A stretch of 64,000 nucleotides of DNA, from NCBI RefSeq assembly GCF_033115175.1, contig NC_084847.1:44997905-45061904 (forward strand), given 5' to 3'. Below are positions 18,284-45,740 of this stretch, in pieces; within the stretch, counting starts at the first letter, position 1; each line of letters opens with the position of its first letter. The position numbers were made by a program, and so were the translations under genes. A model generated the notes under the pieces. That model was not told the origin of the DNA and ran no database searches. It saw only the letters and a program-made list of their open reading frames with translations. The DNA is from Lepus europaeus (Eukaryota; Chordata; Mammalia; Lagomorpha; Leporidae).

Positions 18284-18516
18284 CACAGACAGTCAAAGCC
18301 AAAATTAACAGTTCGGATTACATCAAATTGAAAAGTTTCTGTACTGCAAAAGAAACAACAAAGTGAAGAGGCAACTAACAGAATGGGAAAAAAATATTTG
18401 AAAACTATGCAACCGATAAATGATTAATATCCAGAATCTACAAAGAGATCAACAAACTCTACAACAACAAAACAAACAACCCATTTAAGAAATAGGCCAA
18501 GTACCTCAATAGACAT
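18284..18516 (+). mobile_element. Inverted internal segment of the same L1
   Basis: Runs in the opposite orientation to the L1 sequence on both sides and matches about 54,718-54,955 of the intact element (CCAAAATTAACAGTTCGG, AAGTTTCTGTACTGC, CCTCAATAGACA). Its first 15 bases (18,284-18,298) are complementary at 14 of 15 positions to 18,241-18,255, a fold-back that marks the inversion joint. It is degraded and no frame is open. Confidence 0.9.
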
Positions 18517-20911
18517 TTTTTTCTTCTTTGTTGGGAGGGCCTTTATTACTGTTTCAATTTCTGTCTCAGTTATGGGTCTGTTTCGGTTTTCTGTGTCTTC
18601 CTGGTTCAATTTAGGTAGGTTGCATGTGTCCAGGAATCTATCCATTTCTGATACATATCCCTGTTTGCTGGCATGCAACTCTTTGTAGTAATTTTTGATG
18701 ACTCTTTTTATTTCTGTGGCATCTGTTGTTAGATTCCCTTTTTCATCTCTGATTTTATTGATTTGGGTCTTTTCTTTTTTAGGTTAGTTGGGCCAATGGT
18801 GTGTCAATTTTGTTTATTTTTTCAAAATACCAGCTCTTCATTTGGCTTATTTTTTGTAATTTTTTTAAATTCAATTCTGTTGGTTTCTTTAATTTCAATT
18901 ATTTCTCTTTTCCTACTAGATTTGGGTCTGGTTTGCTGCAGTTTTACTAGATCCTTGAGATGCACTGAAAGCTCATTTATTAGAACTATTTTTTATTATT
19001 ATTAGAATTCATTTACTTATTTATTTATTGCTATTAGAACTTATTTGGTGCCTTTCCAATTTCCTGATATAGGCACCTATTGCTGTGAACTTTCCTCTCA
19101 ACACTGCTTTTGCTCTGTCCCATAATTTTTGATATGTTGTGTTGTTATCATTTACTTTCAGAAAGTTTTTGATTTCTCTTTTGATTTCTTCTATGACCCA
19201 GTGTTCATTCAGGAGCATGTTGTTCAGTCTCCATGTGTTTGCATATGCTCTAGGGATTCCTGAGTTGCTAATTTCCAACTCCATTCCACTGTGGTCTGAG
19301 AATCTGCATCGTATAATTCTAATTCTTTTGAATTTGCTGAGACTTGCTTTATGGCCTAGTATATGGGCAATCCTAGAGTAGGTTCCATATACTGCTGAGA
19401 AGAATGTAAATTCTTTAAGTGTAGGATGAAAAGTTCAAGTATCTGTTAGATCCATTTGGGCTATAGTGTCATTTAAGTACTCTGTTTCTTTGTTGATCTG
19501 TCAGGTTGATCTGTTTATTTCTGAGAGTGGACTATTGAAGTCCCCCAGTACTACTGTATTGGAATCTAAGTCTCCCTTTAAGTCCCTTAACATATCTTTT
19601 AAATAAACCAGTGCCCTGTAATTAGGTGCATATACATTGATAATCGTTATATCTCCCTGTTGAATTGATCCCTTAGTCATTATATAGTGCTCCTCTTTGT
19701 CGCTCTCAACAGTTTTTGTGTTAAAGTTTAGTTTGTCTGATATTAAGATGGCTACACTCCCTCTGTTTTCATTTCTGTTGGCATGGAATATCTTTTTCCA
19801 GCCTTTCACTTTCAGTCTGCATGCATCTTTGTTGGAAAGATGTGTTTCTTATAAGCAGCAAATGGATGGATTTTGTTCCTTAACCCATTCAGCCAGTCTG
19901 TCTTTTAACTGGAGAGTTGTGACTATTGATAAGTAGTAACTTTGCCCTGCCGTTTTCGCAAAGATATTTTCTAATATATGCTTTGAACTTCCTGTGATCT
20001 TTTACTGTGAGGTTTCCTTCCTTTACCTTCTTTCATATTGATTACCGTGTTTCTGTGTTTCTGTGTGTAACACATCTTTAAGCATCTTTTGCAGGGCTGG
20101 ATGAGTGGTGACAAATTCTTTCAATTTCTGTTTGCTATGAAAGGTCTTTATTTCACCTTCATTCACAAATGAGAGCTTTGCAGGATATAATATTCTGGGC
20201 TGGCAGTTTTTCTCTCTTAGTACCTGGGCTATATCTCGCCATTCCCTCCTAGCCTGCAGGGTTTCTGATGAGACGTCTGCTGTGAGTCTAATTGGAGATC
20301 CTCTGAGAGTAATCTGATGTTTCTCTCTCACATTTTAGAATCTTTATGTTTCACTGTGGTGAGTTTGATTACAATGTGTCGTGGTGAGGATCTCTTTTGG
20401 TCATGTTTATTAGGGGTTCTATGTGCTTCCTATACTAGGATGTCTCTTTCCATCTCCAAACGCGGGAAGATTCCTGCTAGTATCTCCCTAAAAAGGCCTT
20501 CTAATCCTTTCTCCCTCTCCATGCCTTCAGGAACTCCTAGAACCTGAATGTTGTTGTTGTTGTTGTTGTTTTTAATAGTATCCTGTAGATTCCCAAAAAT
20601 ATTTTTTTGGTTTGCAATTTCCTCTTCTTTTCTTTGGTTTGACTGTATACTTTCCTGTGCTCTTCCTTCTAAGTCTGATAATCTCTCTTCTATATTACTG
20701 ATTCTATTTTAAGGCTCTAAAATGTGTTTTTCATTTGTTCTATTGAATTCTTCATTTCATTTTGATTTCTCTTCAATATCTCAATTTCATCTACTACTAA
20801 ATTCCTTCAGATTTTGATTCCTCCTTAAGATTCCATTTTCATTAGAGAGATTTTCTGTCCTGTCCTTTATGGATTTCTGTAGTTCATACATTTGCTTTTG
20901 ATAACTTCTAA
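18517..20911 (-). mobile_element. Antisense L1, ORF1 to start of RT
   Basis: Minus-strand frames give ORF2 endonuclease words (18,424-19,809: [34 protein letters not shown]) and ORF1 C-terminal words (20,023-20,331: [35 protein letters not shown]). It covers the equivalent of about 50,775-53,120 of the intact copy. About 1.6 kb of RT sequence between this piece and the inverted segment is missing. Scattered frameshifts and stops break both frames. The element stops abruptly inside ORF1 at 20,911, where the minisatellite starts, so its 5' end is absent. Confidence 0.95.
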
Positions 20912-22459
20912 ATGGGACTCCGCTACCACCCAGATCCCCAGCCCCTGCAGGCACTGTGAGAGCCCACCTTGGGCAACCCACACGCGGCCCACCCCTTCCC
21001 AGGACCCCAGAACCTGCAGGCACTGCGAGAGCCCTCCCTGGGCACCCGAGATGGAACCCGCCCTACGCCCAGATGCCCAGCCCCTGCAGGAACTTAGAGA
21101 GCCCTCCTTCCGCATCTCAAAGGAGACACCCCACCACCCAGATCCCCAGCCCCTGCAGGAACTGGGAGAGCCCTCCCTGGGTATGCCAGATGCGACCCCG
21201 CCCCAAGCCCAGATCCCCAGCCCCTGCAGGCATTGTGAGAGCCCTCCCAGGGCACCCCAGACGCAACCCCGCACCCTGCCCAAGTCCCTAGCCACTGTAG
21301 GCATTGTGAGAGCCCTCCCAGGGCACCCCAGACGCAACCCCGCACCCTGCCCAAGTCCCTAGCCACTGCAGGCACTGCAAGAGCACTTCCTGGGCACCCA
21401 AGACGCGACCCGCCCCGCCCAGATCCCAAGCCCCTGCAGGCACTCTGAGACCCTCATGGGCACCCCAGACGCGACCCCGCCACCATCCAGATCCCCAACT
21501 CCTGCAGACATTGCGAGAGCACTCATTGGGCACCAAAGACGAGACCTCTCCCACGACCAGATCCCCAGCCCCTGCAGGCACTGCGAGAGCCCTCCCTGGG
21601 CACCCCAGACACGACCTCTCCCCCCTCCCAGATCCACAGCCCTTGCAGGCACTGCAAGAGACATCCTTGGGCACCGGAGTCTTGTCCCACCCCCGCCCAG
21701 ATCCCCAGCCCCTGCAGGCACATGGAGAGCCCTCCCTGGCACCCCAGACGCAACCGGGCCCCCGCCCAGTTCCCCAGCCCCTGCAGCCACTGCGAGAGCC
21801 CTCCTTGGGCAAGCCAGACGGGACACCGCCCCCCGTCCAGGTCCCCAGCCCCTCAGGCACTGTGAGAGCTCGTCCTGGCATCCGAGATGCAACCTGCCCC
21901 CGCCCAGGTCCCCAGGCCCTGCAGGCACTGCAGAGCCCTCCTTGGGCACACCAGACGCGACCCTGCCCACCGCCCAGATCCCTAGCCCCTGCAGGCACTG
22001 TGAGAGCCGTCCTTGGGCACCCGAGACACGACCCCGCACCCTGCCTAGGTCCCAAGCCCCTGCAGGCACTGGGAGAGCCCTTCCTGGGCACCCCAGACAC
22101 AAACCGCCCCCGCCCAGGTCCCCAGCCCCTGCAGGCACTGTGATAGGCCTCCATGGGTACCCCAGACATGACCGCGCCCAACGCCCAGATGCCTAACCCC
22201 TGCAGGCACTTTGAGAGCCCTCCTGGTGCACCTCAGACGTGACCCCGCCCTCTGCCCAGGTCCCAAGTCACTTCAGGCACTGCGAGAGTCCTCCCTGGGC
22301 ACCAGAGATGGGACCCGGCCCCGCCCAGATCTCCAGCCCCTGCAGGCACTGCGAGAGCCCTCCTGGGGCACCCCAGACTCAACCCCGCCCCCCGCCCAGA
22401 TCCCTAGCCCCTGCAGGCACTGTGATAGCCCTCCTGGGGCACCCCAGACGTGACCCCGC

Positions 22460-22570
22460 CCTCTGCCCAGGTCCCAAGCCACTTCACACACTGCCAGAGT
22501 CCTCCCTGGGCACCAGAGATGCGACCTATCCTCGCCCAGATCCCCAGAAACTGCAGGCACTGCGAAAGCC
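22460..22570. repeat. Isolated relatives of higher-order-repeat monomers
   Basis: Monomers with the rare variants CCACTTCACACACTGCC and CCCAGAAACTGCAGG occur here and again at matching places inside each 2.02-kb unit (for example 24,525-24,600). They show that the higher-order unit was assembled from variants already present in the array. Confidence 0.8.
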
Positions 22571-23789
22571 CTCCTGGGGCACCCCAGACGCGACCTCTCC
22601 CACGACGAGATCCCCAGCCCCTGCAGGCACTGCAAGAGCCCTCCCTGGGCACCCCAGACGCGAACTGCCCCCTTCCTTGTCCCAGCCCCTGCAGGCACTG
22701 CGAGAGCCCTCCCTGGGCACCCCTGACATGAACCGCCCCCGCCCAGATCACCAGCCCCTGTATGCACTGTGAGAGCCCTCCTGGGGCACCCCAGACGCGA
22801 CCCCGACCCCCGCCCAGATCCCCAGCCCCTGTAAGCACACGGATAGCCCTCCCTGGGCACCAGAGACGTGACCTGCTGCCGCCCAGGTCCCCAGCCAGAG
22901 CAGGCACTGCGAGAGCCCCACTCCCCCCCCACCGCCCCGTGGACCCCAGATGTGACTCCGCCCCCTGCCCAGGTCCCAAGCCACTGCTGACACTGCGAGA
23001 GCCCTCCCTGGGCACAGGAGACACGACCCGCCCCTGCCAAGGTCCCAAGTCCTTGCAGGCACTGGGAGGGCACTCCTTGGGCATCCCAGACTCGGTCCGC
23101 CGCCGCCCAGGGGCCCAATATGCAGGCACTGGGAGAGAACTCCCTGGCACACGAGACAGGACCCCGCACCCTGTCCAGGTCCCAAGCCACTGCAGGCACT
23201 GCGAGAGCCCTCCTTGGACACCCCAGACGCGACCCGCCCACGCCCAGGGGCCCAGGCTATGCAGGCACTTCCAGAGCCCTCCCAGGCACCCGAGACGCGA
23301 CGCGCCCCCGTCCGTGTACCAGCTCCTGCAAGCACTGCGTGAACCCTCCCTGGGCATGCTAGAGGCTTCCCAGGCCTCCTGCCCAGATCCCCAGTCCCTG
23401 CAGGCACTGGGAGAGCCCTCCCTGGGCACCCCAGATGCGACCCACCGCAAACCCAGAATCCAAGCCCCTGTAGGCACTGTGATAGCCCTCCATGGGTACC
23501 CCAGAAGTGACCGCGCCCATCACCCAGATCCCTAACGCCTGCAGGCAATTTGAGAGCCCTCCTGGGGCATTCCAGACGTGATCCCACCCTCTGCCCAGTT
23601 CCCCAGCCCCTGCAGGCATTGCGAGAGCCCTCCCTGGGCAACCCAGACACGAACAGCCCCCGCTCAGGTCCCCAGACACTGCAGGCACTGCAGAGCCCAC
23701 CTTGGGCACACCAGACACGACCCCGCTCCCCTCCCAGATCCCCAGCCCCTGCAGGCACTGTGAGAGCCGTCCTTGGGCACCCCAGACGC

Positions 23790-24074
23790 GACTCCGCCCC
23801 CCACCCAGATCCCCAGCCCCTGCAGACACTGTGAGAGTCCTCCTTGGGCACCCCGGACGCGACCCCCGCACCCAGCCCAGATACCCAGGCCCTGTAGGTA
23901 CTGCGAGAGCCCTCCCTGGCACCCCAGACGCGACGCCGCCCGCCGCCCAGATCTGCAGCCCTGCAGGCACTGTGAGAGCCGTCCTTGGGCACCCGAGACA
24001 GGACCCAGCACCCTGCCTAGGTCCCCAGCCCCTGCAGGCACTGCGAGAGCCCTCCCTGGGCACCCCAGACGCGA
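23790..24074. repeat. Four-monomer local duplication next to the higher-order block
   Basis: The monomer series containing GCAGACACTGTGAGAGTCC, then GATACCCAGGCCCTGTAGG, then GATCTGCAGCCCTGCAGG occurs at about 23,819-23,970 and again at about 24,101-24,250. The offset is about 283 bp, or four monomers. Confidence 0.8.
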
Positions 24075-26101
24075 CTCCGCCCCCCACCCAGATCCCCAGC
24101 CCATGCAGACACTGTGAGAGTCCTCCTTGGGCACCCCGGATGCGACTCCGCACCCAGCCCAGATACCCAGGCCCTGTAGGTACTGCGAGAGCCCTCCCTG
24201 GCACCCCAGACGCGACGCCGCCCGCCGCCCAGATCTGCAGCCCTGCAGGCACTGTGAGAGCCCTCCCTGGCACTGGAGATGGACCCGCCCCCTGCCCAGA
24301 TCCCCAGCCTCTGCAGGCACTGCGAGAGCCCTCCCTGGGTACCCCAGACACGACCCCCGCCCCCTCTCAGAATCCAAGCCCTAGCAGGCACTGCAATAGC
24401 CCTCCCTGGGCACCCCAGACTCAACCACGCCCCCCTCCGAGAATCCAAGCCCATGCAGGCACTGCGATAGCCCTCCTGGGGCACCCCAGACGTGACCCCG
24501 CCCTCTGCCCAGGTCCCAAGCCACTTCACACACTGCCAGAGTCCTCCCTGGGCAACAGAGATGCAACCTATCCTCGCCCAGATCCCCAGAAACTGCAGGC
24601 ACTGCGAGAGCCCTCCTGGGGCACCCCAGACGTGACCTCTCCCACGATGAGATCCCTAGACCCTGCAGGCACTGGGAGAGCCCTCCCTGGGCACCCGAGA
24701 TGTGACCCGCCCCCTCCCAGAATCCAAGCCCCTGCAGGCACTGCGATAGCCCTCCATGGTCACAGGAGACACGACCTGCCCCCGCCCAGGTCCCCAGCCC
24801 TAGCAGGCACTGTGAGAGCCCCACCCCCCCCCAGGGACCCCAGACGAGACCCCGCAACTGCCCAGGTCCCAAGCCATTGCAGGCATTGCGAGTGCCCTTC
24901 TCGGCTCCCTACAAATGACCCCGCCTGCGCCCAGATGCCCAGCCCAGTAGGCACAGCGAGAGACCTCCCTGGCACCCCAGATATAACCCCGCCACCTGCC
25001 CAGGTCCCAAGAACCAGCAGGCATTGCGAGAGACCTTCCTGGGCAACCGACTTGCGACCGGCCGCGTCCTTGATCCCCAGCCCCTGTCGGCACTGCGAGA
25101 GCCCTCATTGGGCACCCAGACGCGACCCCACCCTCGCCCAGATCCCCAGCCCCTGCAGGCACTGTGAGAGCCCTCCTTGGGCACCCCAGACGTGACCCCG
25201 TCCCCTGCCCTGGACCCATACCCTGCACACACTGCGAGAGCCCTCCCTGGGCACCAGAGACGCTTCCCCGCCACCTGCCCAGGTCCTAAGGCACTGCAGG
25301 CACAGCGAGAGCCATTCTGGGCACCCGACACGCGATCCGCCCCCGCCAGATCCCCGGCCCAGCAGGCACCTGCGAGAGCTCTCCCTGGGAACCCGAGACG
25401 CGACCCGCCCCTCCCCCAGACCCCCAGGCCCTGCAGGCACTGGGAGAGCCCTCCTTGGGCGTCCCAGACGCGACCCCGCCCCAGCCCAGATCCCCAGGCC
25501 CTATGGGAACTGCAAGAGCCCTCATTGGGCAGCCAAGACGTGGCTCGCCCACGCCCAGGTCCCGAGCCCCTGCAGACACTGCGAAGGTCCTCACTGGGAA
25601 CCCAGACGCGACCCCGCCCCCCCCAGACCCCAGCCCCTGCAGGCACTGTGAGAGCCCTCATTGGGCACCCCAGATGCGACCCCGCCCCCCTGCACAGGTC
25701 CCCAGCACCTGCAGGCACAGCGAGCGCCCTCATTGGGTACCCGAGATGCTAGCCCGCCCCCCTCCCAGATGCCCAGCCTCTGCAGGCAGTGCGAGAGCCC
25801 TCATTGGGCACCCCCAGACGCGACCCTCTCCTGCCCAGGTCCCAAGCCACTGTAGGCACTGTGAGAGCCCTTCCTGGGCACCCGAGAGTCGACACGCCCC
25901 CGTCCGGGTCCCAGTCCCTGCTGGCACTGCAAGAGACCTCCCTGGGCACCCAAGTCGTGACCCGCCCCTGCCCAGGCCCCCAGCCCCTGTAGGCACGACG
26001 AGAGACCCTGCTTGGGCACCCCAGACGTGACCCCGGCCCCCGCCCAGATCCCCAGCCCCTGCAGGCACTGTGAGAGCCCTCCCTGGGCACCCCAGATGCG
26101 A
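24075..26101. repeat. Higher-order repeat, copy 1 (about 2.03 kb)
   Basis: A block of about 29 monomers whose rare variants (CCATGCAGACACTG, CTCGGCTCCCTACAAATGA, CCTTGATCCCCAGCCCC) recur in the same order in the next two copies. The marker CCATGCAGAC is at 24,101 here. Confidence 0.95.
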
Positions 26102-28122
26102 CTCCGCCCCCCACCCAGATCCCCAGCCCATGCAGACACTGTGAGAGTCCTCCTTGGGCACCCCAGACGCGACTCCGCACCCAGCCCAGATACCCAGGCC
26201 CTGTAGGTACTGCGAGAGCCCTCCCTGGCACCCCAGACGCGACGCCGCCCGCCGCCCAGATCTGCAGCCCTGCAGGCACTGTGAGAGCCCTCCCTGGCAC
26301 TGGAGACGGACCCGCCCCCTGCCCAGATCCCCAGCCTCTGCAGGCACTGCGAGAGCCCTCCCTGGGTACCCCAGACACGACCCCGCCCCCTCTCAGAATC
26401 CAAGCCCTAGCAGGCACTGCAATAGCCCTCCCTGGGCACCCCCAGACTCAACCACGCCCCCCTCCGAGAATCCAAGCCCATGCAGGCACTGCGATAGCCC
26501 TCCTGGGGCACCCAGACGTGACCCCCGCCCTCTGCCCAGGTCCCAAGCCACTTCACACACTGCCAGAGTCCTCCCTGGGCAACAGAGATGCAACTATCCT
26601 CGCCCAGATCCCCAGAAACTGCAGGCACTGCGAGAGCCCTCCTGGGGCACCCCAGACGTGACCTCTCCCACGATGAGATCCCTAGACCCTGCAGGCACTG
26701 GGAGAGCCCTCCCTGGGCACCCGAGATGTGACCCGCCCCCCTCCAGAATCCAAGCCCCTGCAGGCACTGCGATAGCCCTCCATGGTCACAGGAGACACGA
26801 CCTGCCCCCGCCCAGGTCCCCAGCCCTAGCAGGCACTGTGAGAGCCCCACCCCCCCCAGGGACCCCAGACGAGACCCCGCAACTGCCCAGGTCCCAAGCC
26901 ATTGCAGGCATTGCGAGTGCCCTTCTCGGCTCCCTACAAATGACCCGCCTGCGCCCAGATGCCCAGCCCAGTAGGCACAGCGAGAGACCTCCCTGGCACC
27001 CCAGATATAACCCCGCCACCTGCCCAGGTCCCAAGAACCAGCAGGCATTGCGAGAGACCTTCCTGGGCAACCGACTTGCGACCGGCCGCGTCCTTGATCC
27101 CCAGCCCCTGTCGGCACTGCGAGAGCCCTCATTGGGCACCCAGACGCGACCCCACCCTCGCCCAGATCCCCAGCCCCTGCAGGCACTGTGAGAGCCCTCC
27201 TTGGGCACCCCAGACGTGACCCCGTCCCCTGCCCTGGACCCATACCCTGCACACACTGCGAGAGCCCTCCCTGGGCACCAGAGACGCTTCCCCGCCACCT
27301 GCCCAGGTCCTAAGGCACTGCAGGCACAGCGAGAGCCATTCTGGGCACCCGACACGCGATCCGCCCCCCGCCAGATCCCCGGCCCAGCAGGCACTGCGAG
27401 AGCTCTCCCTGGGAACCCGAGACGCGACCCGCCCCTCCCCAGACCCCCAGGCCCTGCAGGCACTGGGAGAGCCCTCCTTGGGCGTCCCAGACGCGACCCC
27501 GCCCCAGCCCAGATCCCCAGGCCCTATGGGAACTGCAAGAGCCCTCATTGGGCAGCCAAGACGTGGCTCGCCCACGCCCAGGTCCCGAGCCCCTGCAGAC
27601 ACTGCGAAGGTCCTCACTGGGAACCCAGACGCGACCCCCGCCCCCCCCAGACCCCAGCCCCTGCAGGCACTGTGAGAGCCCTCATTGGGCACCCCAGATG
27701 CGACCCCGCCCCCTGCACAGGTCCCCAGCACCTGCAGGCACAGCGAGCGCCCTCATTGGGTACCCGAGATGCTAGCCCGCCCCCCTCCCAGATGCCCAGC
27801 CTCTGCAGGCAGTGCGAGAGCCCTCATTGGGCACCCCAGACGCGACCCTCTCCTGCCCAGGTCCCAAGCCACTGTAGGCACTGTGAGAGCCCTTCCTGGG
27901 CACCCGAGAGTCGACACGCCCCCGTCCGGGTCCCAGTCCCTGCTGGCACTGCAAGAGACCTCCCTGGGCACCCAAGTCGTGACCCGCCCCTGCCCAGGCC
28001 CCCAGCCCCTGTAGGCACGACGAGAGACCTGCTTGGGCACCCCAGACGTGACCCCGGCCCCCGCCCAGATCCCCAGCCCCTGCAGGCACTGTGAGAGCCC
28101 TCCCTGGGCACCCCAGATGCGA
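26102..28122. repeat. Higher-order repeat, copy 2 (about 2.02 kb)
   Basis: Nearly identical to copy 1. The marker CCATGCAGAC is at 26,128, an offset of 2,027 bp. The few differences are single-base indels in C-runs and isolated substitutions. Confidence 0.95.
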
Positions 28123-30105
28123 CTCCGCCCCCCACCCAGATCCCCAGCCCATGCAGACACTGTGAGAGTCCTCCTTGGGCACCCCAGACGCGACTCCGCA
28201 CCCAGCCCAGATACCCAGGCCCTGTAGGTACTGCGAGAGCCCTCCCTGGCACCCCAGACGCGACGCCGCCCGCCGCCCAGATCTGCAGCCCTGCAGGCAC
28301 TGTGAGAGCCCTCCCTGGCACTGGAGACGGACCCGCCCCCTGCCCAGATCCCCAGCCTCTGCAGGCACTGCGAGAGCCCTCCCTGGGTACCCCAGACACG
28401 ACCCCGCCCCCTCTCAGAATCCAAGCCCTAGCAGGCACTGCAATAGCCCTCCCTGGGCACCCCCAGACTCAACCACGCCCCCCTCCGAGAATCCAAGCCC
28501 ATGCAGGCACTGCGATAGCCCTCCTGGGGCACCCCAGACGTGACCCCGCCCTCTGCCCAGGTCCCAAGCCACTTCACACACTGCCAGAGTCCTCCCTGGG
28601 CAACAGAGATGCAACCTATCCTCGCCCAGATCCCCAGAAACTGCAGGCACTGCGAGAGCCCTCCTGGGGCACCCCAGACGTGACCTCTCCCACGATGAGA
28701 TCCCTAGACCCTGCAGGCACTGGGAGAGCCCTCCCTGGGCACCCGAGATGTGACCCGCCCCCTCCCAGAATCCAAGCCCCTGCAGGCACTGCGATAGCCC
28801 TCCATGGTCACAGGAGACACGACCTGCCCCCGCCCAGGTCCCCAGCCCTAGCAGGCACTGTGAGAGCCCCACCCCCCCCAGGGACCCCAGACGAGACCCC
28901 GCAACTGCCCAGGTCCCAAGCCATTGCAGGCATTGCGAGTGCCCTTCTCGGCTCCCTACAAATGACCCGCCTGCGCCCAGATGCCCAGCCCAGTAGGCAC
29001 AGCGAGAGACCTCCCTGGCACCCCAGATATAACCCCGCCACCTGCCCAGGTCCCAAGAACCAGCAGGCATTGCGAGAGACCTTCCTGGGCAACCGACTTG
29101 CGACCGGCCGCGTCCTTGATCCCCAGCCCCTGTCGGCACTGCGAGAGCCCTCATTGGGCACCCAGACGCGACCCCACCCTCGCCCAGATCCCCAGCCCCT
29201 GCAGGCACTGTGAGAGCCCTCCTTGGGCACCCCAGACGTGACCCCGTCCCCTGCCCTGGACCCATACCCTGCACACACTGCGAGAGCCCTCCCTGGGCAC
29301 CAGAGACGCTTCCCCGCCACCTGCCCAGGTCCTAAGGCACTGCAGGCACAGCGAGAGCCATTCTGGGCACCCGACACGCGATCCGCCCCCGCCAGATCCC
29401 CGGCCCAGCAGGCACTGCGAGAGCTCTCCCTGGGAACCCGAGACGCGACCCGCCCCTCCCCAGACCCCCAGGCCCTGCAGGCACTGGGAGAGCCCTCCTT
29501 GGGCGTCCCAGACGCGACCCCGCCCCAGCCCAGATCCCCAGGCCCTATGGGAACTGCAAGAGCCCTCATTGGGCAGCCAAGACGTGGCTCGCCCACGCCC
29601 AGATCCCGAGCCCCTGCAGACACTGCGAAGGTCCTCACTGGGAACCCAGACGCGACCCCGCCCCCCCCAGATCCCCAGCCCCTGCAGGCACTGTGAGAGC
29701 CCTCATTGGGCACCCCAGATGCGACCCCGCCCCCTGCACAGGTCCCCAGCACCTGCAGGCACAGCGAGCGCCCTCATTGGGTACCCGAGATGCTAGCCCG
29801 CCCCCCTCCCAGATGCCCAGCCTCTGCAGGCAGTGCGAGAGCCCTCATTGGGCACCCCAGACGCAACCCTCTCCTGCCCAGGTCCCAAGCCACTGTAGGT
29901 ACTGTGAGAGCCCTTCCTGGGCACCCGAGAGTCGACACGCCCCCGTCCGGGTCCCAGTCCCTGCTGGCACTGCAAGAGACCTCCCTGGGCACCCAAGTCG
30001 TGACCCGCCCCTGCCCAGGCCCCCAGCCCCTGTAGGCACGACGAGAGACCTGCTTGGGCACCCCAGACGTGACCCCGGCCCCCGCCCAGATCCCCAGCCC
30101 CTGCA
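28123..30105. repeat. Higher-order repeat, copy 3 (about 1.98 kb)
   Basis: The marker CCATGCAGAC is at 28,149, an offset of 2,021 bp from copy 2. The block ends near 30,105, where the monomer breaks into GCATGGGGGAGCCCTACC. Confidence 0.95.
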
Positions 30106-32689
30106 GGCATGGGGGAGCCCTACCATTCACACTAGATAGGACCCCGCACCCCGCCTGTGTCCCAAACCCTGCAGAAATGGCGATAGCGCTACTCTGGCCA
30201 CCCCAGACGGAACTCTGAATTCTACATGGGCCCCACTCCTGCATGCTGGCTGAGGGCTCTACCTGGATATCCCAGCAAGCATTGCGAGAGACCACCCTGG
30301 GCAGCGGATTTGCGACCCGCCGCAGCCTAGATCCCCAGCCCCTGCAGGCATGGCGAGAGCCCTCCCTGGGCACCCCACACGCAACACGCCCCCTGCTCAG
30401 TTCCCAACCCACTGCAGGTGGGTTACCCGAGATGCAACCCGCCCCCGCCCAGATCCCCAGCCCCTGCAAGCACTGCGAGAGCCCTCCAAGGGCACTCGAG
30501 AAGCGACCCGCCCCTACCTAGATCCCCAGCCCTAGCAGGCACTGCGAGCGCCCTCCCTGGGCACCACAGAAGCCGCCCCGCCCGCTGCCCAGTGCCCAAG
30601 CCCCAGCAGACACTCGAGAGCCATCCCTGGCACCAGAGATGGGACCTGCCCCGCCCAGATCCCCAGCTCCAGCAGGCACTGCGAGAGCCCTGCCTGGGAA
30701 CGCCAGACGCGACCCAGCACCCTGCCCAGGTCCCCAGCCCCTGCAGGCATTTTGAGCGCCCTCTCTGGGCACACCAGATACGTCCCCGCCCCCTGCCCAC
30801 GGCCCCAGCTCCTGCAAGCACTGTGAGAAGCCTCCATGGGCACCAGAGACGTGACCCGCCCCTCTCCGGGTCCCAGCACCTGCAGGCACTGCAAGAGCCC
30901 TCGTTGGGCACCAGAGACGCTTCCCCGCCCCCTGCCCAGGTCCCAGCCACTGCAGGCACAGCGAGAGCCCTTCTGGGCAACCGACAGGCGACCCGCCCCC
31001 GCCCAGATCCCCGCATCCTGCAGGCAATGGGAAAGCCCTCCCTGGCACCCCAGGTACAACCCCACACCCCGCTCCTGTCCCAAACCGTGCAGAAATGGCT
31101 CTAGCGATACTCTGGATAACCCAGATGCGACCTGCCCAATGCCCAGATCCCAAGCCCCTGCAGACACTGTGAGAGCCCTCCCTGGGCACCCAAGACGCTA
31201 CCCATCCACGGCCAGATCCTAAGTCCCAGCAGGAACTACAAGAGCCCTCCCTGGGCACTCAAGATGCTTCCCTGCCTCCTTTCCAGATCCCCAGCCCCTG
31301 CAGGCACTGTGACAGCCCTCCTTGGGATCTCCAGACATGACCCCGCCCACCCCCCAGATCCCCAGCCCCTGTAGGCTCTGCGAGAGCCCACACTGAACAC
31401 CCCATACAGGACCCCACCCCCACCAGGATCACCAGCCACAGCAGGCATTGTGAGAGCCCTCATGGGGCCACCCCAAGATGCGACACCGCCCCCTGCACAG
31501 GTCCCCAGCCCCTGCAGGCACTGCAACAGCCCTCCTTTGGCTCTCCAGACGCGACCCCGCCCCCCACCTCTGCGCAGATCCACAGCCCCTGTAGACTCTG
31601 CGAGAGCCCACACTGAACACCCCATACAGGACCCCACCCGCGCCAGGATCCCCAGCCCCAGCAAGCATTGTGAGAGCCCTCATGGGACACCCCAGACGCA
31701 ACCCCGCCCCCTGCACAGGTCCCCAGCACCAGCAGGTACTGCGAGAACCCTCCTTGGGCACCTGAGAAGCGACCTGCCCCTGCCCAGATCCCCAGCCTCT
31801 GCAGGCACTGCCAGAGCCCTTATGGGCAACCCAGACCCGACCCCACCACCTGCCAAGGTCCCAAGCCACTGCAGGCACAGCTAGAGCAATACCTGGGCAC
31901 CCGAGATGCGACCCACCCCCGCCCAGATCCCCAGCCCATGCAGGAACTGTGAGAGCCCTCCTTGGCAATAGAGACGCGACCCGCCCCGCCCAGATCCCCA
32001 GCCCCTGCAAGCACTGCGAGAGCCCTCCTTAGGCGTCCCAGAGGAGACCCCTCCCCTGCCCAGATCCCCAGCCTCTGCAGGCACTGCGAGAGCCCTCCTT
32101 GGGCGTCCCAGACATGACCCCGCCCCTGCCCAGATCCCCAGCCACTATAGGCACTGTGAGAGCCTTCATTGGGCACCCAGATGCGACCCCACCCCTGCCC
32201 AGATCCCCCGTCCCTGCAGGCACTGCGAGAGACCTCCTTAGGCATCCCAAACGAGACCCCGTCCCTGCCCAGATGTTCAGCCCCTATAGGCACTGCGAGA
32301 GCCTTCACTGGGCACCCGACGCGACCCCAGCCCCGCCCAGGTCCCCAGTCCCTGCAGGCACTGTGAGAGCCATCATTGGGCACCCCAGACGGGACCCCGA
32401 ACTCCCCGCCCAAAATCCCCAGACCATGTAGGCACTCGAGAGCCCTCCCTGGGCACCCGAGACGTGACCCGCCCCCGCCTAGATCCCCAGCACCTGCAGG
32501 CACTATGACAGCCCTTCTTGGGCTCTCCAGACGTGATGCCGCCCACCCCCCAGATCCCCAGCCCCAGCAGGATCTGCGAGAGCCCTCATTGGGCACCCCA
32601 TACGCGACCCCACCCCGGCCCATATCCCCAGCCCCTGAAGGCACTGTGAGAGCCCTCATTGGGCATCCCAGACGTGACCCCGCCCTCTG

Positions 32690-33400
32690 CACAGGTCCCC
32701 AGCACCTGCAGGCACAGCGAGCGCCCTCATTGTGTACCCGAGACGCTACCCCCGCCCCCCTTTCAGATGCCCAGCCCCTGAGGGCAGTGCGAGAGCCCTC
32801 ATTGGGCACCCCAGACGCGACCCCCTCCTGCCCAGGTCCCAAGCCACTGTAGGCACTGTGAGAGGCCTTCCTGGGCACCCGAGAGGCGACACGCCCCCAT
32901 CCGGGTCCCAGTCCCAGCTGGCACTGCAAGGCCTTCCTTGGCACCCAAGACGTGACCCCGCCCCCTTCCCAGGTCCAAAGCCCCTGCACGCACTGAGAGC
33001 CCTCCCTGGGCACCCAAGAAGTGACCCACCCCTGCCCAGATCCCCAGGCCCTATGGGAACTGCGAGAGCCCTCATTGGGCATCCAAGACGTGGCCCGCCC
33101 ACGCCCAGGTCCCGAGCCCCTGCAGACACTGCGAAGGTCCTCACTGGGAACCCAGACGCGACCCCACCTCTGCCCAGATCCCCAGCCCCTGCAGGCACTG
33201 TGAGAGCCCTCATTGGGCACCCCAGATGCGACCCCCGCCCCGTGCCCTGATCCCATGCCCTGCAGGCACTCTGAGAGCCCTCCCTGGGCACCAGAGACGC
33301 TTCCCCGCCACCTGCCCAGGTCCTAAGGCACTGCAGGCACAGCGAGAGCCATTCTGGGCACCCGACACGCGATCCGCCCCCGCCAGATCCCCGGCCCAGC
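32690..33400. repeat. Diverged partial copy of the higher-order unit
   Basis: Monomers here share rare variants with 25,695-26,000 and 25,200-25,370 in a similar but rearranged order: GCACAGCGAGCGCCCTCATT, CGGGTCCCAGTCCC, and CTAAGGCACTGCAGGCACAG. Divergence is clearly greater than among the three main copies, so this is an older cousin. Confidence 0.75.
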
Positions 33401-34029
33401 AGGCACTGCGAGAGCCCTCCCTGGGAACCCGAGATGTGACTCGTCCATGGCCAGATCCTCAGTCCATTCAAGAACTGCAAGAGCCCTCCCTGGGCACCCA
33501 AGACCCTTCCCCGCCTCCTGCCCAGATCTCCAGCCCCTGCAGGCACTGCGACAGCCCTCCTTGGGCTCTCCAGACGCGACCCCCCCCCCCCAGATCCCCA
33601 GCCACTGTAGGCTCTGCGAGAGTCCACACTGAACACCCCATACAGGACCCCACCCCCGCCAGGATCCCCAGCCCCAGCAAGCATTGTGAGAGCCCTCCCT
33701 GGGCACCCCAGACACGACCCCGCCCCCTGCACAGGTCCCCAGCACCTGCAGGCACTGCGAGAGCCCTCCATGGGCACCTGAGAAGCGACCTGCCCCTGCC
33801 CAGATCCCCAGCCTCTGCAGGCAGTGCGAGAGCCCTCACTGGGCACCCCAGACGCGACTCCGCCCCTGCCCAGATCCCCAGCCGCTGCAGGCACTGCCAG
33901 AGCCCTTCTGGGCACCCCAGACCCGACACGCCCCCGTCCAGATCACAGTCCCTGCACGCACTGCGAGAGCCCTCCCTGTGCATCCCAGATGCGTCCCCAC
34001 CCCCCGGCCCCCCTGTGTCCCAACTCTTT

Positions 34030-37000
34030 TAGGAATGGCGATAGCCCTGCTCTGGCCACTGCAGGCGGGACCCCGCCTCCTACCCGGCTCCCCAACCCTG
34101 TAGGCAAGCTGAGGGCCCCGCCCTGGGCACCCCAGATGCAACCCCAGCCACTGTGGCACAGCGAGGTCCCCGCCCTGGAAACCCCTGATGATGTTCCACA
34201 CCCTGTCTGTGTTCAGTGTCCCAAGCCCCAGCATGCTTGGCAAGAGACCTCCCCTGAGCACCCCATGCGAGACCCCAACCCCTGTCAGGGTCCCCACCAC
34301 TGCAGGCAGAGGAAGGGCCCCGCAGGAACGGTGAGGGCAGGCCCAGAGGGATCCCCGCCCTACACACCCAGGACAGAAGCCCATCTCACTCACCTGGGTC
34401 CCCAGCCCCTGTGGCACAGCGAGGGCCCCGCAGGCACACTAAGGGCCCCGCCTTGGGCACCCCAGACGCATCCACGGCGATAACCCGGATCCCCACACGT
34501 GACCCTGCCTCTTACCCGGGCCCCCACTCGTGCATGCAGGCGAGGGCCCAGCCCTGTGCAGCCAAGACGAGACCCCGCCGCAAGATGGGGTCCCCAGCCC
34601 TACAGGCACAGAGAAGACCCTCAGGCACAGCGAGGGACTGCCCTAGGCATTGCATTTGTGACCACGCCCCCGCCTGGTCCCCAGCCCCTGCAGGCACTGC
34701 AAGAGCCCACCCTGGGCACCTGAGAGGCGACACGCCCCCTTCTGGGTCCCAGTCCCTGCAGGCACTACAAGAGCCCTCCCTGGGCACCCAAGACACGAAA
34801 CCGCCTCCTGCCAAGGTCAGAAGCCCCTGCAGGCACTGGGAGAGCCCTCCCTGGCACCCCAGATGTGACCCCTCCCCCCACTCGGGTCCCATCCCTTGCA
34901 GGAATGGTGATAGCGCTGCTCTGGACACCCCAAACGGGACCTCAGTTTCTACCCAGGTCTCCACCCCTGCAGGCAGGCTGAGGACCCCGCCCCGGGGCAC
35001 TCCAGAAGCGACCCCGCCCCCAGGCCAGGTCCAAAGACCCTGCTGGCACTGCCAGAGCCCTCCCTGTGCACCCTGGAGGCAACCCGCCCACCGCCCAGGT
35101 AACCAGCCACTGCAAACACTGCGAGAGCCCTCCCTGGGCACCCAAGTTATGACCCCGCACCCCGCCCGTGTCCCACACCCTGCAGGAATGGCGATAGCAC
35201 TGCTCTGGCCACCCCAGACGGGACTCTGCATACTACTCCGGCCCCACCCCTGTAGGCAAGCTGAGAGGCCTCCCTGGGCACCCCAGACGCGACCCCGCCT
35301 CCTGCCCGGGTCCCAAGCCACTGCAGGTACTGCAAGAGCCCTCCCTGGGCACCCCAGACGCGACCCGCGCCCGGCCCCGATCCCTAGCCCCTGCAGGCAC
35401 TGTGATTGTCCTCCCTGGGCACCCAAGATGCGACCCCACACCCTGCCCGGGTCCCAAACCCTGCAGGAATGGTGACAGCTCTGCTCTGGCCACCCTCGAT
35501 GGGACCCCGCCTCCTACCCAGGTCCCTACCCCTGCAGGTAGGCTGAGGGCCCCGCCCTGGGCACCCCTGACTCGACCCCGCCCCCCACTCGGGGCCCAAT
35601 CCCCTGCAGTAATGGTGATAGTGCTGCACTGGCCACCCCAGATAGGACCCTGTCTCCTACCCGGGTCCCCACCCCTGCAGGCAGGCTGATGGCCCCGCCC
35701 TGGGCACTCCAGAGGGGACCCCATATCCTTCCCATGTCCCCGCCCCTGTAGGCACTGTGAGTGCCCTCCCTCAACACCGCAGACACGACCCTGCCCCCTG
35801 CCCGTGGCCCAATCCCCTGCAGGAATGGCGTGAGCCTCACCCTGGCCACCCAGTTGGGAGCCCGCCTCCTACCCCCGTCCCCACCCCTGCAGGCAGACTG
35901 AGGACCCTGGCTTGGGCACTGCACATGGGACCCAGCCACCCACCCACGTCCCCAGACTGCAGGCATGGTGAGGGCCCAGCCCTGTGCACCCCAGACGAGA
36001 CCCCGCCCCAAGCTGGGGTCGCCAGCCCTACAGGCACAGAGAAGACCCTCAGGCAGAGCAAGGGACCCGCCCTAAGCTTTGCAGATGTGACCAACCCCCC
36101 ACCCAGATCCCCAGCACCCGCAGGCACTTCGAGAGCCCTTCTGGGCACTCCAGAAGCGACCTGCCCCATGCCCAGGTCCCAAGCCCTTGCAGGCACTGCA
36201 AGAGCCCACCCTGGGCACCCCAGATGCGACCCCGTCCCCGCCCGGGGTCCCAAGACCTGCAGGAATGGCGATAGTGTTGTACTGGGCACCCTAGACTGGA
36301 CCCCGCATCCTTCCCGGGTCACCACCCCTGCAGGCACTGCAAGAGCTCTCCCTGAGCACCTGACACGCCACCCCGCCCCCTGCCCGGGGCCCAGTCCCCT
36401 GCAGGAATGGCAAGAGCCCCACCTTTGCTACCCCAGATGGGATCCAGTCTCCTACCCCGGTCCCCACCTCTGTATGCAGACTGAGGGCCCCGGGTGGGCA
36501 CTGCACATGGGACCCAGCCCACCCGCCTGCATCCCCAGACTGCAGGCAGGGCAAGAGCCCTGTCATGGCACCCCAAAAGCGACCCCGCCCCCCGTCCAGA
36601 TCCCCAGCCCTTGCAGGCATGGCGAGAGCCCCGCCCTGGGCACCCCAGACGCAACTCCACCTCACCCACCCTGGTCCTCAGCCATTGTGGCACAGCGAGG
36701 TCCCCGCCCTGGAAACCCCTGATGATGTTGGAACATCTGCCCGGGTCCCCAAGCCCCAGCATACTTGGTGAGAGCCCCACCCCATGCACCCCACACGAGA
36801 CCCCGCCCCCTACCCAGGTCCCCACCACTGCAGCAGGGCAAGAGCCCCGCAGGCACAGCCAGGCCAGGCCCAGAGGGTGCCTGTCATGGGGCATCCATGT
36901 TGCGAACCTGCCTCGCCCGCCCGGATCTGCAGCCCCTGTGGCACAGCGAGGGCCCAGCAGGTACACTGAGGGCCCCGCCCTGGGCACCCCAGGTGCATCC

Positions 37001-37895
37001 ACACCCCCCACCCGGATCTCCAACCCCTTGCAGCATGGCGAGAGCGCTGCACTGGGCACCCCAGATGTGACCACACCCACTGCCCAGATTCGCAGCCCCT
37101 ACAGGCACTGCAAGTGCCCCGCCCTGGGAACCCCACATTGACCACGGCCCTCGCCCCGATCTCAGCTCCTGCAGGCACTATGAGAGAGTTCATAGGGTAC
37201 CCCAGATGGGACCCACCCCTGCCTGGGTCCCAAGCCCCTGCAAGGATGCCAATAGCCCCGCCCTGGCCACCCCAGACGGGACCCCGTCTCCTACCCGAGC
37301 CCTCACCCCTTCTGGCAGGCTGAGGGTCCCACCCTGGGCACCCCAGATGGGACCACACCCCCTGCCCGGATCCCCAGCTCCTACAGTCATGGAGAGAGCC
37401 CTGCCCTGGTCACCCCAGATGCGGCCCTACCCTTGCCCAGGTCCTTCGCCACTGCAGGTACAGTAAGGGCCCCGCACTGGGCACGCAAGACACCACTCCG
37501 CCCAGCCTGCCTGGATCCCCAGCCCCTGAGGGCACTGCAAGGGCCCCACAGACACAGTGAGGACCCCGGCCTGGGCACCCCATATTCGACCCCACTCCTG
37601 CCTAGGTTCACAGATCCTGCAGGTACTGCGAGGGCCCCGCAGGCACAGCGAGGGCAGGCGTGGCAAGAATCCCACTCTGGGCAACTCAGGCACTACCCTG
37701 CCCCCCCCTCCCAGCTTGGGGCCCCAGTCCCCACAGTGCTGCGAGGGTCCCGCTTTGGGCATCCCAGGCGCTACACCGCCCTCCACCCGGCCCAGGGCCC
37801 CAGGCCCCGTAGTTGTCATGAGTGCCCCGCCCTGGCACCCCAGACATGACCCCGCCCCCGCCCATGTCCCCAGCCCTTGTATGCATGGCGAGGGC
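34030..37895. repeat. Right zone of the minisatellite with different monomer types
   Basis: From about 34,030 the units change. GCAGGCAGGCTGAGGGCCC, GCAGGAATGGCGATAGC and CTACCCGGGTCCCCACCCC types alternate with the standard type. The linker and the tail after GCAGG differ, but the GGGCACCCC core remains. The zone looks older and less homogenised than the middle. Confidence 0.8.
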
Positions 37896-38257
37896 CCCAT
37901 GGGTGGGTGGAGGCAGCTATTGGCTGTGGGGCCAGAATTGCTTTCTATGTTAGGCTTTGCACTTCCAGGCCGGAGTACAGAGAGTGCTTGCTTCAGTCTG
38001 GTAAAGCCAGGTTCCAGAGCACTGTTTCTGCTGCTGTAGCCTCCAAGGAAGAGGAGGAGGAAGGCAGGGAGCCAAGCCAACATGGGGACTTGTTTTTAGC
38101 CAATGAAACACAGCAGCCACCACGTACTCGAAAAAAGCTCAGAGCTCCAGTGGGCTACAGCGTCCATTTTCTAAAGTTTCCATTTTCTACTTTCCTATTT
38201 TTGCACCCTAGCCTTTGCAACTTTTCTTGGCAGGCTACTATCTATCTTTGCAGGGGT
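37896..38257. other. Spacer between the two arrays
   Basis: About 360 bp of non-repetitive sequence separates the two arrays. It includes an A/G-rich part (GGAAGAGGAGGAGGAAGG) and a T-rich part. I recognise no gene or transposon. Confidence 0.6.
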
Positions 38258-38311
38258 GGGGATGCGGCGGCAGCTGAGGTGCCTGAGGAAGGGACAACAG
38301 TGCTGGGGGCC
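38258..38311 (-). repeat. Inverted monomer at the start of the second array
   Basis: The reverse complement reads GGCCCCCAGCACTGTTGTCC, then CTTCCTCAGGCACC, then GCTGCCGCCGCATC. That is a unit of the second array, but every clear monomer to its right is on the plus strand. Confidence 0.8.
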
Positions 38312-41275
38312 TTGCAGGAGTGGCAACCCCAGGAGCAGTCCCCAGGAGCCATGGCATCGTATTTGGCTGTCAGCTTCTCCTTCCTAGGCACCCCCCCTAC
38401 AGGCATGTATTTGTGCCTCAGTGCAGCCACCAGCAGCCATCTGTCACTGGGCCCCTTGTGTGGCCCCCAGCTGCCACTGCCTGCTTAAGGAGCACCCCAC
38501 TGCCGCCTCATCATTGGGCCCCTATGTGGATGCCAGGGGTCTCCACCTCCTGCCTCCTGCATCTCCACTGCGGACAATTTTTTGGGGAAGCCGCGAGGGA
38601 CCCAGCAGCAGCAGGCCCTTTCCTCAGGCACCCCTGCTTGGCCACGATATTGGGTCTCAACTGGGACCATACAGCCTCTACCTCCTTCCTAGGGCAACGC
38701 TGTGGCTGCCGCATTTTAGGGCACCCCCACCCCCACGCGCTGAGTCCAGCAGCCACCAAGTCATTGGCACCACCAGGTGGTCCCTAGCTGCCACCGCCTC
38801 TGTCCCTGGGCACCCCTGTTGCCGCTGCATCATTCAGAGACCCGTGTAATCCCCAGCAGCCATCAAGTCATTGCCAGACGTTGCAGCCTCCTCCTCCTTC
38901 CTTGGGCACCCGCGGTGCTGCCATGCCTTTGTGCCCCAGCGTGGGCCCCCCTGCAGCCATTTGTCATTGAGCCCCTTACACGGTCCCCAGCAGCCGCCAC
39001 CTCCTTCCTTGGCCAAACCACAGCTGACGCATTTTAAGGGTCCCCACCTGCATGCTCCCAGCAGCCACTAAGTCATTGGGGTCCCCGTGTGGTCCCTAAC
39101 AGCCACGGCTTCTGTCCTCCAGCACCCTTGTTGTCACTACATCACTGGGTACCCTGTGAGGTCCCCAGCAGCCTCCACGGCATTGCCTGCCTTTGCTGCC
39201 TCCTTTTCCTTCCTTGGGCACCTGCGGTGCAACATGCCTTTGTGCCCCAGCATGTCCTACCCCTGCAGCCACCGTGTTATTGCCCACCTTGGCTGCCTCC
39301 TTCTCCTTCCTATGGCACTCCTCGTGCAACCACGTCCTTGTGCCCTAGTGGGGACACCCGTAGGCACCTGTCATTGGGACTTTGTGTGGTCCCCAGCAGC
39401 CTCGCTGCTGCCTCGTCATTGAGCTCCCAGCTGCCACTGTCTCCTTAAGGAGTACTCCCACTGCCACGTTGTTATTGAGACCCCACCTGGACCCCAGGCA
39501 CCCTCCACCTCCTCCCTCGGGCATCTCCACTATCAACATTTCTTTGGGGCCCCTGTGCAGCCCCCAGCAGCCGCCAGCCCTTTCCTCAGGCACTACTGCA
39601 TGCGCCACATCTTTGGGCCCCCAGGCGGACCCCAGCAGCCGCCATCTCCTTTATCTGGCAACCCTGCTGTCCCTGCTTCTTGGGCCCCAGCACTGCTGGC
39701 TCCTTCCTCAAGCACCCTGGCTGACACTGCCTCATTGGGTCCCCATGGGGACCCCAGCAGCGGATACCTCCTTCCGTGGACACCCCCTCTGCCCCCTCAT
39801 CTTTGGGACTCCACACAGACCCCAGCACCTGCCTCATTCTTCCTCGGCCACCTCCGCAGCTGCTACATTTTAGTACCCCCCCACACACACATGTCCCCAG
39901 CAGCTACTAAGTCATTGGTGTCCCCGTGCGGTCCCTAGTAGCCACAGCCTCCGTCTCCAAGCACCCCTGCTGTTACTGCATCATTGGGCATGCAGCACCT
40001 CATGGCCCCCCTTGGCTGCTTCCTTCTTCCTCAGTCACTCTCCATGCAGCCATGTCTTTGTGCCCCAGTGCACCACCAGGAGCCACCTGTCATTGGGCCT
40101 CCTGCCCAGTCCCCTGCAGCTGCCACCTCCTTATTCTGGCATTCCCACTGCCACCTCATCATTAGGCCCCCACGCACACCCCAGCAGCCGCCATCTCCTT
40201 TCCAGAGCACCCCCGCTGCCACTGCACCATTGGGCCCCCCCTCGGTCCTCAGTGGTTGCCATCTCCTCGGTCAACCTCCACTGCTGCCTGTTTTTGGGGC
40301 CCCTGCACGGCCCTTAGCAGGTGCTGGCCTCTTCCTCAGACACCCTCAAATCCCCAGGTGTACTGCAGAGGCTGCTACCTCCTTCCTCGGCCACCCCGGC
40401 GGCTGCCACGTCTTAGGGACCCCCACCCCTCGTGGACTCCAGGAGCTACCTCATTGGCATCCCCACAAGGTCCCTAGCAGCCACCACCACTGTCCTCGGG
40501 CACCCCTGCTACCACTGTATCATTGGGCACTCTGAGGAGTCCCTATGATTGCCCGAGGATGCTTCCTACTTCTTGGGCTCCACTGCTGCCTCTGGTTATT
40601 TGGGCCCTACGTGCAGCCCCCAGGACCCACCAGCTCCTTCCTTTGGCACTCCCGCTGTCACCACATCATTAGGTGACCACGGGGAACCCAGAAGCTTTCA
40701 CCTCTTGCCTTGGGCACCTCCGGTGCCTTTGCATTATTAGGCCCCCACATGGTCCCCATTGGCCTCCTAACTCAGGCAGTCCCACTGCCACAGCATCATT
40801 GGGCCCCCAATGGACATGAGCGGCTTCCACCTCTTCCCTCCGGCATGCCTACTGCCTACCCATCTTTAAGTCCTTGCTCTGCTCCCAAAGCCACTGACCC
40901 CTTCTATGGGCACCTCCATTGCCACTGAGTCTTTGGGCCCCCATGTGGACCCCAGCAGCTGCCAAGTCATTGGGCCCCTGGCACAGTCCTTACCAGCCTC
41001 TGCGTCATTGCCCACAGTTGCTGCATCCTTCTCCTTCCTAGGGCACAGCCAGTATGGCCAGGTTCTTGTGCCCTAGCGCGATCCCCCACAGCCACCTGTC
41101 ATTGGGCCCCCCAGCACGGTCCCCAGCCCCACTGCCTCATTGCTCAGGCACATCTGCTGCTCCCACATCATTGGGCCACCACGCGGACTCCAGCAGCCAC
41201 CACCTCTTTCCTTGGGAATCCCCGCTGCCGATGCTTCTTTGGGGCCCCTGCACGGCCCCCAATAGCTGCTGGCAG
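38312..41275. repeat. Second minisatellite, about 68-bp diverged monomer
   Basis: Units of the form CCCCAGCAGCCGCCATCTCC, then CTTCCTCGGGCACCCC, then GCTGCCACTGCATCATTGGG, then a CCCCACGCGGA linker. One unit at about 40,183-40,250 measures 68 bp. About 40 units are present, much more diverged than in the first array. Several unit types recur in blocks, such as AAGTCATTGG followed by GTGGTCCCTA near 38,752, 39,068 and 39,907, which hints at an old multi-unit period. It ends at AGCTGCTGGCAGAGATTTG. Confidence 0.88.
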
Positions 41276-42111
41276 AGATTTGTTCTTATGCGCAGGTCTT
41301 CAAACAACCCTTGGGGTACCAGAACTCCCCAAGAGTCACTCTCCCTATCAGGCTTCTCATCTACCACCCACAAAATCCAGGCCATTCTATTTTCAGCCTG
41401 TCAGCATGTTTCCAGAGATACCCTATGCTGACACTGTGGCTAGGCACCTTTCCACAACCCTATCTCACAAAGTCAGAAGTTGGCTGTCTACTCCAAAATT
41501 GCCTCCAGTTCTCATATCCCCCACTCATCTACAACTGTGTCTCCTCCAAATTATCCACTGGGCTCTGGAAGGCTTGCCTTCTCCTCATCAAGCTGTGACC
41601 CCCATAGAGGACTGCACTCACAACCCTGAGGATTAAGACTGGAAGCTGAGGTCTGTTAGGTAAGGCCAGGACTCCAGCCATCATGGGGTGCCCTGGAGTG
41701 TCAATATGAGCATAGAACCCAAGCCTGTGTGATGCCCCACATATGCAGGTCTGGAATCAAGGGTCAGAGATCAGACTTACACTGAATACCATAACACTGA
41801 ACACCATAAGCCACTCTGGGTACTTGAATTTGCTCTTAAGCAAGCCAAATGCCCATTCACTGCCTGGCACTGTCCATACCAGCTCTGTCATCAGAACATG
41901 GGAGGTCCATCCACAGTCTTTCCCCTGATACCAGCATGAATATTCCAATTCTGAGCTCTGGGCTGCTCTACAAGACCCTGGACCATCCACTCACATGCTA
42001 AACCTTCCAGTACCCATTTTGTCCTGTAGAATTTCAGAGCTGAGTCCCAGTAAGCTGCCATTCCCTAAGGCAGAACCAGGCCGATTCAGTTCTCCCAACT
42101 TGTATTTTTTT
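41276..42111. other. Unassigned stretch right of the arrays
   Basis: About 835 bp of mid-GC sequence without tandem structure. The frames at 41,280-41,636 and 41,311-41,598 have no recognisable domain. No splice-site or promoter pattern convinced me. Confidence 0.4.
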
Positions 42112-44080: not shown

Positions 44081-44084
44081 CACA

Positions 44085-45420: not shown

Positions 45421-45423
45421 TAG

Positions 45424-45684: not shown

Positions 45685-45740
<56 letters not shown>

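Follow-up and report, generated by a model that had tools for sequence, protein, structure and literature searches.

Why should a tandem array of some 17 kb remain free of visible transposon insertions when short interspersed elements (SINEs) are frequent in the DNA beside it? This question is raised by a 64,000-nucleotide stretch of the Lepus europaeus genome (hereafter the window; positions 44,997,905-45,061,904 of the 60.6-Mb contig C27), in which an earlier note had described a GC-rich minisatellite at 20912..37895 and had put its lack of insertions down to fast homogenisation or young age. Neither explanation is upheld by our analyses: the units are only ~70-75% identical and are about equally different within and between arrays, and a scarcity of target sites would account for the missing SINEs. 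We consider it probable that the locus belongs to an old, chromosome-specific GC-rich minisatellite that spread in segmental duplicates and by one block insertion, and that changes mainly by multi-unit blocks.

Structure of the Array in the Window

That a minisatellite of about 17 kb is present was borne out by Tandem Repeats Finder (TRF), which reported a 69-71-bp period in consecutive rows from 20,914/20,929 to 37,484, and by a wrap-around alignment of positions 20,901-38,300 to the consensus unit, which called 247 units where roughly 240 had been proposed. The 230 units that were well formed (identity to consensus >0.6 and length 60-82) span 20,929-37,861, and the units have a median length of 70, with lengths clustering at 69-71 bp, and a mean identity to consensus of 0.82. 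The right end was placed at 37,903, where the last high-identity alignment with a duplicate copy (array A, below) stops. With head-to-tail units within the range of about 10-100 bp, the array (array W) is a minisatellite, and its GC content is 68% (0.65-0.70 per kilobase). The regular units described previously continue to ~34.0 kb but not beyond, as from there to ~37.8 kb blocks of ten units average only 0.70-0.79 identity to the consensus; the last ~0.7-1.1 kb of the array is 95% identical in copy A and 98% identical in copy E. A tandem higher-order repeat (~2,022 bp x 3) had been overlooked in the earlier note. Its three copies have a mutual identity of 98.6-99.6%, and unit-to-unit identity in W peaks at offsets of 29 and 58 units and is otherwise nearly flat with distance, while alignment of the array of copy E revealed no 2-kb tandem block there. 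The setting in AT-rich DNA holds for the most part, with GC values per kilobase of 0.31-0.50 outside the array except at 37-42 and 59-61 kb, but GC-rich DNA runs on to ~41.3 kb as a different, irregular repeat, which is separated from the array by ~0.4 kb of other DNA. Open frames within the array are present on both strands, as expected of a stop-poor repeat, and we make no coding claim for them.

Related Loci Are Found on One Chromosome

The L. europaeus assembly (2.93 Gb, 649 contigs) was searched for relatives of the array. A query of 1 kb of array W recovered arrays A and B, a decayed relic (C) at 27.40 Mb and, on contig C6, a single 62-bp match, and arrays D (29.08 Mb) and E (43.73 Mb) were located through the flanks of segmental duplicates (Table 1). 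A 47-nt pattern representing the unit core, with ≤3 mismatches, had 98 matches genome-wide, all of them on C27 and in five arrays (A, 28; D, 20; B, 16; E, 20; W, 14), and the reversed pattern, used as a control, had none. All six matches to an edge-type pattern were also on C27, as were all of the 100 listed among the 278 matches to a relaxed pattern, although these 100 omit even array B and say little on the remaining 178. With six loci found, all on C27, this is a chromosome-specific minisatellite family and not a single-locus variable number tandem repeat (VNTR); the many arrays on several chromosomes that characterize a dispersed satellite family were not observed, all pattern matches listed being on C27 and one lone unit having been seen on C6. 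The choice offered by the earlier note between many loci and a single locus is therefore answered by neither, as the family occupies several places on one chromosome and reached them mostly through segmental duplication.

The lone 70-bp unit on C6 (2.043 Mb, L018:5030-5105) is 85-88% identical and is the only one in the 10 kb of sequence read there. At C6:1.607 Mb, 0.44 Mb away, lies an 81% relative of window positions 59.8-60.8 kb, and it is possible that this region of C6 represents an older source region. Relic C borders a CCTGTGT (7/14/21-bp) array, which hints at an older composite of several minisatellites.

Table 1. Coordinates of the arrays and of features in the window (positions without a contig name are window positions).
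Feature	Position	Strand	Size or description	Evidence
Array W	20914..37903	+	~17 kb; 70-bp GC-rich minisatellite array, ~240 units, C-rich on +	TRF, consensus alignment, GC
Higher-order repeat in W	24022..30109	+	three tandem copies, ~2,021-2,027 bp (29 units) each	self-alignment, unit-offset identity
Decayed right edge of W	34000..37903	+		unit identity to consensus, alignment to A and E
Array A	C27:27.664-27.686 Mb	+	~22 kb	
Array D	C27:29.082-29.098 Mb	-	~16 kb	
Array E	C27:43.734-43.7585 Mb	-	~24.5 kb	
Array B	C27:29,190,093-29,196,944		6,852 bp; 99 units called, 97 well formed	
Array C	C27:27.3997-27.4027 Mb		decayed relic	
Right flank of segmental duplication	37194..64000	.		probes: copies at C27:27.69 (+), 29.08 (-), 43.73 (-) Mb
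Short spacer	37904..38289	.	common to duplicates; SINE in copy A's version	sequence, alignment to copy A
Second irregular GC-rich repeat	38290..41280	.	~65-70 bp	self-match, genome search
L1-like element without its 5' part	16515..20914	-	truncated at array edge	85.7% match to window's other L1 ends at 20,914; 3' part; W-E left flank
Full-length L1-like element	50026..56120	+	open frames 349 and 1,300 aa (stop to stop)	

Segmental Duplicates Carry Four of the Arrays

Arrays W, A, D, and E each sit within a segmental duplicate, have a common right flank and form two inverted pairs (A/D and E/W), the members of each pair being 1.3-1.4 Mb apart on one contig. An 801-bp unique piece of the right flank differs by 0.5% between W and E, by 0.6% between A and D and by 1.0-1.9% between the pairs, and for 1 kb of the second GC-rich repeat the corresponding values are 1.6, 1.7, and 3.2-3.6%. 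Between W and A, the right flank is 95.3% identical over 5 kb, and a probe from window positions 59.8-60.8 kb recovered all four duplicates again. On the left, E and W are 97.5% identical over 13.6 kb (a probe at 7-8 kb of the window again retrieves E) and A and D are 98.3% identical over 4.4 kb, which is all of the left flank of A that was compared, while the left-flank alignments revealed no colinear left flank between the pairs. A match of 0.94 kb (87%) between the left flank of D and those of W and E is non-colinear and looks like another L1 copy, and was not counted as shared flank. Both left junctions sit inside a unit, and the two pairs diverge in their left flanks precisely at the array.

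Units Persist While Blocks Are Gained and Lost

Mean unit identity is 0.69-0.75 within as well as between arrays, i.e., units differ by ~28%. For W the value is 0.722 within the array and 0.703-0.732 to the other arrays (W-E 0.713, W-B 0.732), so that the clear excess of within-array over between-array similarity that concerted evolution would produce was not observed. That units differ about equally within and between arrays leads us to regard the family as old and hardly homogenised, and as the flanks of the duplicates differ by only 0.5-4.7%, the units are older than the duplications. The best partner of a W unit has a median identity of 0.957 in E vs. 0.868 in W itself (172 W units, with the extra higher-order copies dropped). 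When the arrays were aligned at the level of units, 142 of 230 W units found a partner in E, and 179 of 288 A units found one in D. The paired units form colinear blocks at either end, and the gaps in the interior reach 77 units; between W and A, 51 units are paired, 35 of them at the right end. Units persist individually while mostly multi-unit blocks are gained or lost, and the array edges are conserved while the interiors are reshuffled, even between duplicates of 97.5-99.5% identity. Turnover, as suggested by the earlier note, is seen, but it consists mainly of blocks of several units being added or removed, with little homogenisation of units.

Array B Is a Block Insertion

Array B is a 6.85-kb block (~98 units) inserted into an old dispersed repeat. 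It is flanked on both sides by CCATGAGC(A/T)ATTTATATTTTTC(C/T)ATTTT, a target duplication with 26 of 28 bp identical; in a random control only 2 of 200,000 pairs of flank 28-mers reached 24 matches. An empty site was found in all five paralogous copies compared (of 56 matches besides itself), with the left flank aligning over just 39-56 bp in four of them and over 513 bp in the other (L048), and the left and right flank alignments overlap by 28-31 bp, consistent with a single copy of the target in the paralogs. In the four empty sites that were read at letter level the nick side is CCATTTT/G, and as the L1 endonuclease leaves a nick at TTTT/R, the site of B is one that the L1 machinery would use. 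Neither junction of B has the poly(A) that this machinery would also leave, and the units run directly into target DNA at both ends, with no non-VNTR module. The insertion is old, because hardly any B unit finds a match of at least 0.93 in another array (fractions of 0.00 in W, A, and D and 0.01 in E), the median best partners elsewhere being 0.85-0.86.

It is feasible, although we consider it doubtful, that B represents a ready-made array that moved into an L1-endonuclease-type nick, and that whole arrays can be mobilised. The route would then have been either cDNA made from a long, C-rich, poly(A)-less transcript of an array or a captured piece of DNA, and a chromosome-restricted family would grow both by segmental duplication and by the insertion of ready-made tandem arrays. 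With its visible empty site, B offers a clean case of a tandem array arising at a new place in one step.

Scarcity of Target Sites in the Array

The absence of SINEs was assessed with two SINE queries, which identified 21 SINE-like stretches in the window. None of these is inside array W, whereas the 20.9 kb on its left side has 15 (one per 1.4 kb), in keeping with the contrast drawn previously. TTTT/[AG] sites number 0.24 per kb in the array vs. 11.3-12.7 per kb in the flanks, i.e., they are ~50 times rarer, and based on the number of sites, scaled from the 15 left-flank intervals, ~0.25 SINEs would be expected in the array. We infer that the array is without SINEs because L1-endonuclease-type targets are lacking. 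Array A contains one SINE, at a rare CTCTT/A spot, which D does not have, so that freedom from SINEs is true of W but not of its sister array. A lack of transposons can thus mean missing target sites and not youth, which calls for caution in dating GC-rich arrays.

Proposed Mechanism and Alternative Explanations

The minus strand of W has 107 canonical G-quadruplex (G4) motifs vs. 55.9 ± 7.0 (maximum 71) in 100 Markov sequences, and the plus strand has none; the minus-strand number is beyond that expected from composition, as it would be in a G4 minisatellite. As units differ by ~28%, single-unit unequal exchange would be suppressed, and change would proceed through block copying of a replication or break-repair type. 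With its many G4 motifs, the G-rich strand may stall replication and so make the array a breakpoint, which would fit the divergence of the left flanks of the two pairs exactly at the array. Four duplicate copies in two close pairs and one independent insertion provide a natural time series of change in a long minisatellite.

Several points weigh against an old family that changes mainly by blocks. In array B, units resemble one another slightly more (0.748) than they resemble those of the other arrays (0.711-0.732), which is the largest such gap, and adjacent units exceed permuted order by 0.008-0.013 in four of the five arrays (reached by 0 of 500 permutations), B being the array in which 448 of 500 permutations reach the observed value. 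In the alignments of W with E and of A with D, a few units stand unpaired on their own and may reflect single-unit gain or loss, or filter dropouts. The genome search scores the best candidates only and skips very common words, so that weak copies elsewhere may be missed, and as a single assembly supplied the array lengths, some of these may reflect collapse or false duplication. Lastly, G4 formation and the fragility of the array are predicted.

Of the other explanations, an assembly artefact could have produced part of the pattern (the W/E and A/D pairs, the length differences and the higher-order copies), as tandem arrays are error-prone, the pairs are merely 0.5-2.5% different and one assembly was available; we think this unlikely, as the pairs are inverted and far apart on one contig, unit divergence is enough for correct assembly, and two SINEs in copy A are absent from D. 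Under the textbook model of unequal crossing-over, in which single-unit exchange cleans an array, the edges are more degenerate than the core, and the right edge of W does conform to this, as do the small excess between adjacent units and the likeness within B. Within-array identity is, however, at most slightly above between-array identity, and it is nearly flat with distance save for the two offsets in W, leaving classical concerted evolution quite unlikely. The 28-bp target duplication of B at a TTTT/G site would also suit the VNTR of an SVA- or LAVA-like composite retrotransposon spread by the L1 machinery, but an origin of this kind is very unlikely for an array lacking poly(A) and a non-VNTR module, when the four other arrays are segmental duplicates with long common flanks (W, A, D, and E showed no outer right end around which a target duplication could be sought).

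The conserved right edge and a CpG observed/expected ratio of 0.35-0.43, vs. 0.16-0.24 in the AT-rich flanks, might be taken to indicate a selected macrosatellite-like regulatory or structural element. As CpG is depleted, not island-like, and the units drift star-like, we regard this as highly improbable; we have no evidence for a coding or selected function of the array, and a selected function is not needed to explain it. We give the least credence to a young array, recently amplified and yet to be reached by transposons, despite the SINE-free window copy and the recent amplification of a 2-kb block to three copies in W. It is at odds with units that are older than the duplications, with the distance of B units from their best partners elsewhere and with the SINE in array A, and it needs units that evolve far faster than their flanks, against which the W-E partner identity speaks. 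An array of L1 5'-UTR monomers was rejected, as the adjoining L1 is cut inside ORF1 and not in the 5' UTR, and the edges of A and D have no such L1.

Comparison With Known Systems

Human beta-satellite has a unit of 68-70 bp and forms arrays that range from several to tens of kb, in duplicated, zinc-finger-rich DNA of one chromosome region. The present family is similar, in descriptive terms, in unit size and duplicated setting. Unlike in the beta-satellite regions, no KRAB exon was seen near array W or E (none at C27:43-46 Mb among the 150 top-scoring of 681 candidates, those on C27 being at 2.4, 28.1, 54.0, and 56.4 Mb), and a KRAB-zinc-finger cluster setting is consequently unsupported. The composite retrotransposons SVA and LAVA contain a GC-rich VNTR, and the present family resembles these in that feature and, at one locus (B), in a target duplication; they differ from the present family in that B has neither poly(A) nor shared non-VNTR modules and the other arrays are segmental duplicates.

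The human GC-rich minisatellites CEB1 and CEB25 are reported to stimulate gross rearrangements in yeast, CEB1 through G4 and CEB25 through Cdc13 binding (PMC3486850). W is likewise GC-rich and strand-asymmetric and, as CEB1, rich in G4 motifs, and such stimulation would by analogy fit an array of the W type at a duplication breakpoint; CEB1 and CEB25 are described as subtelomeric, whereas the present arrays are interior on one contig and consist of ~28% diverged 70-bp units. Human copy number variant (CNV) breakpoints are enriched in tandem repeats and G4-type sequences (PMC4090240), similar to the G-rich tandem repeat at the duplication junction here, although those are germline CNVs in people and the present case is an old fixed duplication. 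G4-minisatellite rearrangement and CNV-breakpoint enrichment together would fit the array as a site of breakage and block copying. Interstitial telomeric repeats were inserted in one step at double-strand breaks, as shown by empty sites (PMC8537989). B is also a tandem-repeat block inserted in one step with an empty site, but deletions and additions are described at the junctions of the telomeric repeats, whereas B, with a length of 6.85 kb, is bounded by a target duplication of 28 bp.

Searches by words and not by sequence for rabbit and lagomorph satellites and minisatellites listed no such unit, in agreement with the earlier note, which knew of no named lagomorph satellite with it. On this basis, what would be new here is a chromosome-specific minisatellite family in segmental duplications, a kind that is itself known.

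Other Features of the Window and Its Duplicates

Two elements in the window are presumably L1 copies, and the type of the SINEs is likewise presumed. The junction of the truncated element with the array at 20,914 is common to W and E, and is not in A or D. The full-length element is bounded by a 14-bp target duplication, and its site is empty in copy A, so that it was inserted after the W-A duplication; TRF identified a 39-bp GC-rich tandem repeat at its 5' end.

By genome search, C27 carries three more close copies of the second GC-rich repeat, and diverged relatives were found as well. A ~190-bp relative of this repeat occurs 17 times, with 14 occurrences at C27:43.6-45.9 Mb, two on C326 and one on C12, and at the three loci read (L028, L029, and L034) it is part of a ~3-kb unit that also includes a CCTGTGT array and a ~34-bp minisatellite. 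In copy A, ~5 kb (C27:27.6936-27.6986 Mb) are without G or C and appear to be N, either a gap or withheld letters, where the window is readable. Finally, there is a long open frame at window positions 47,292-48,059 which resembles CREB1 and which is perhaps a processed retrocopy.

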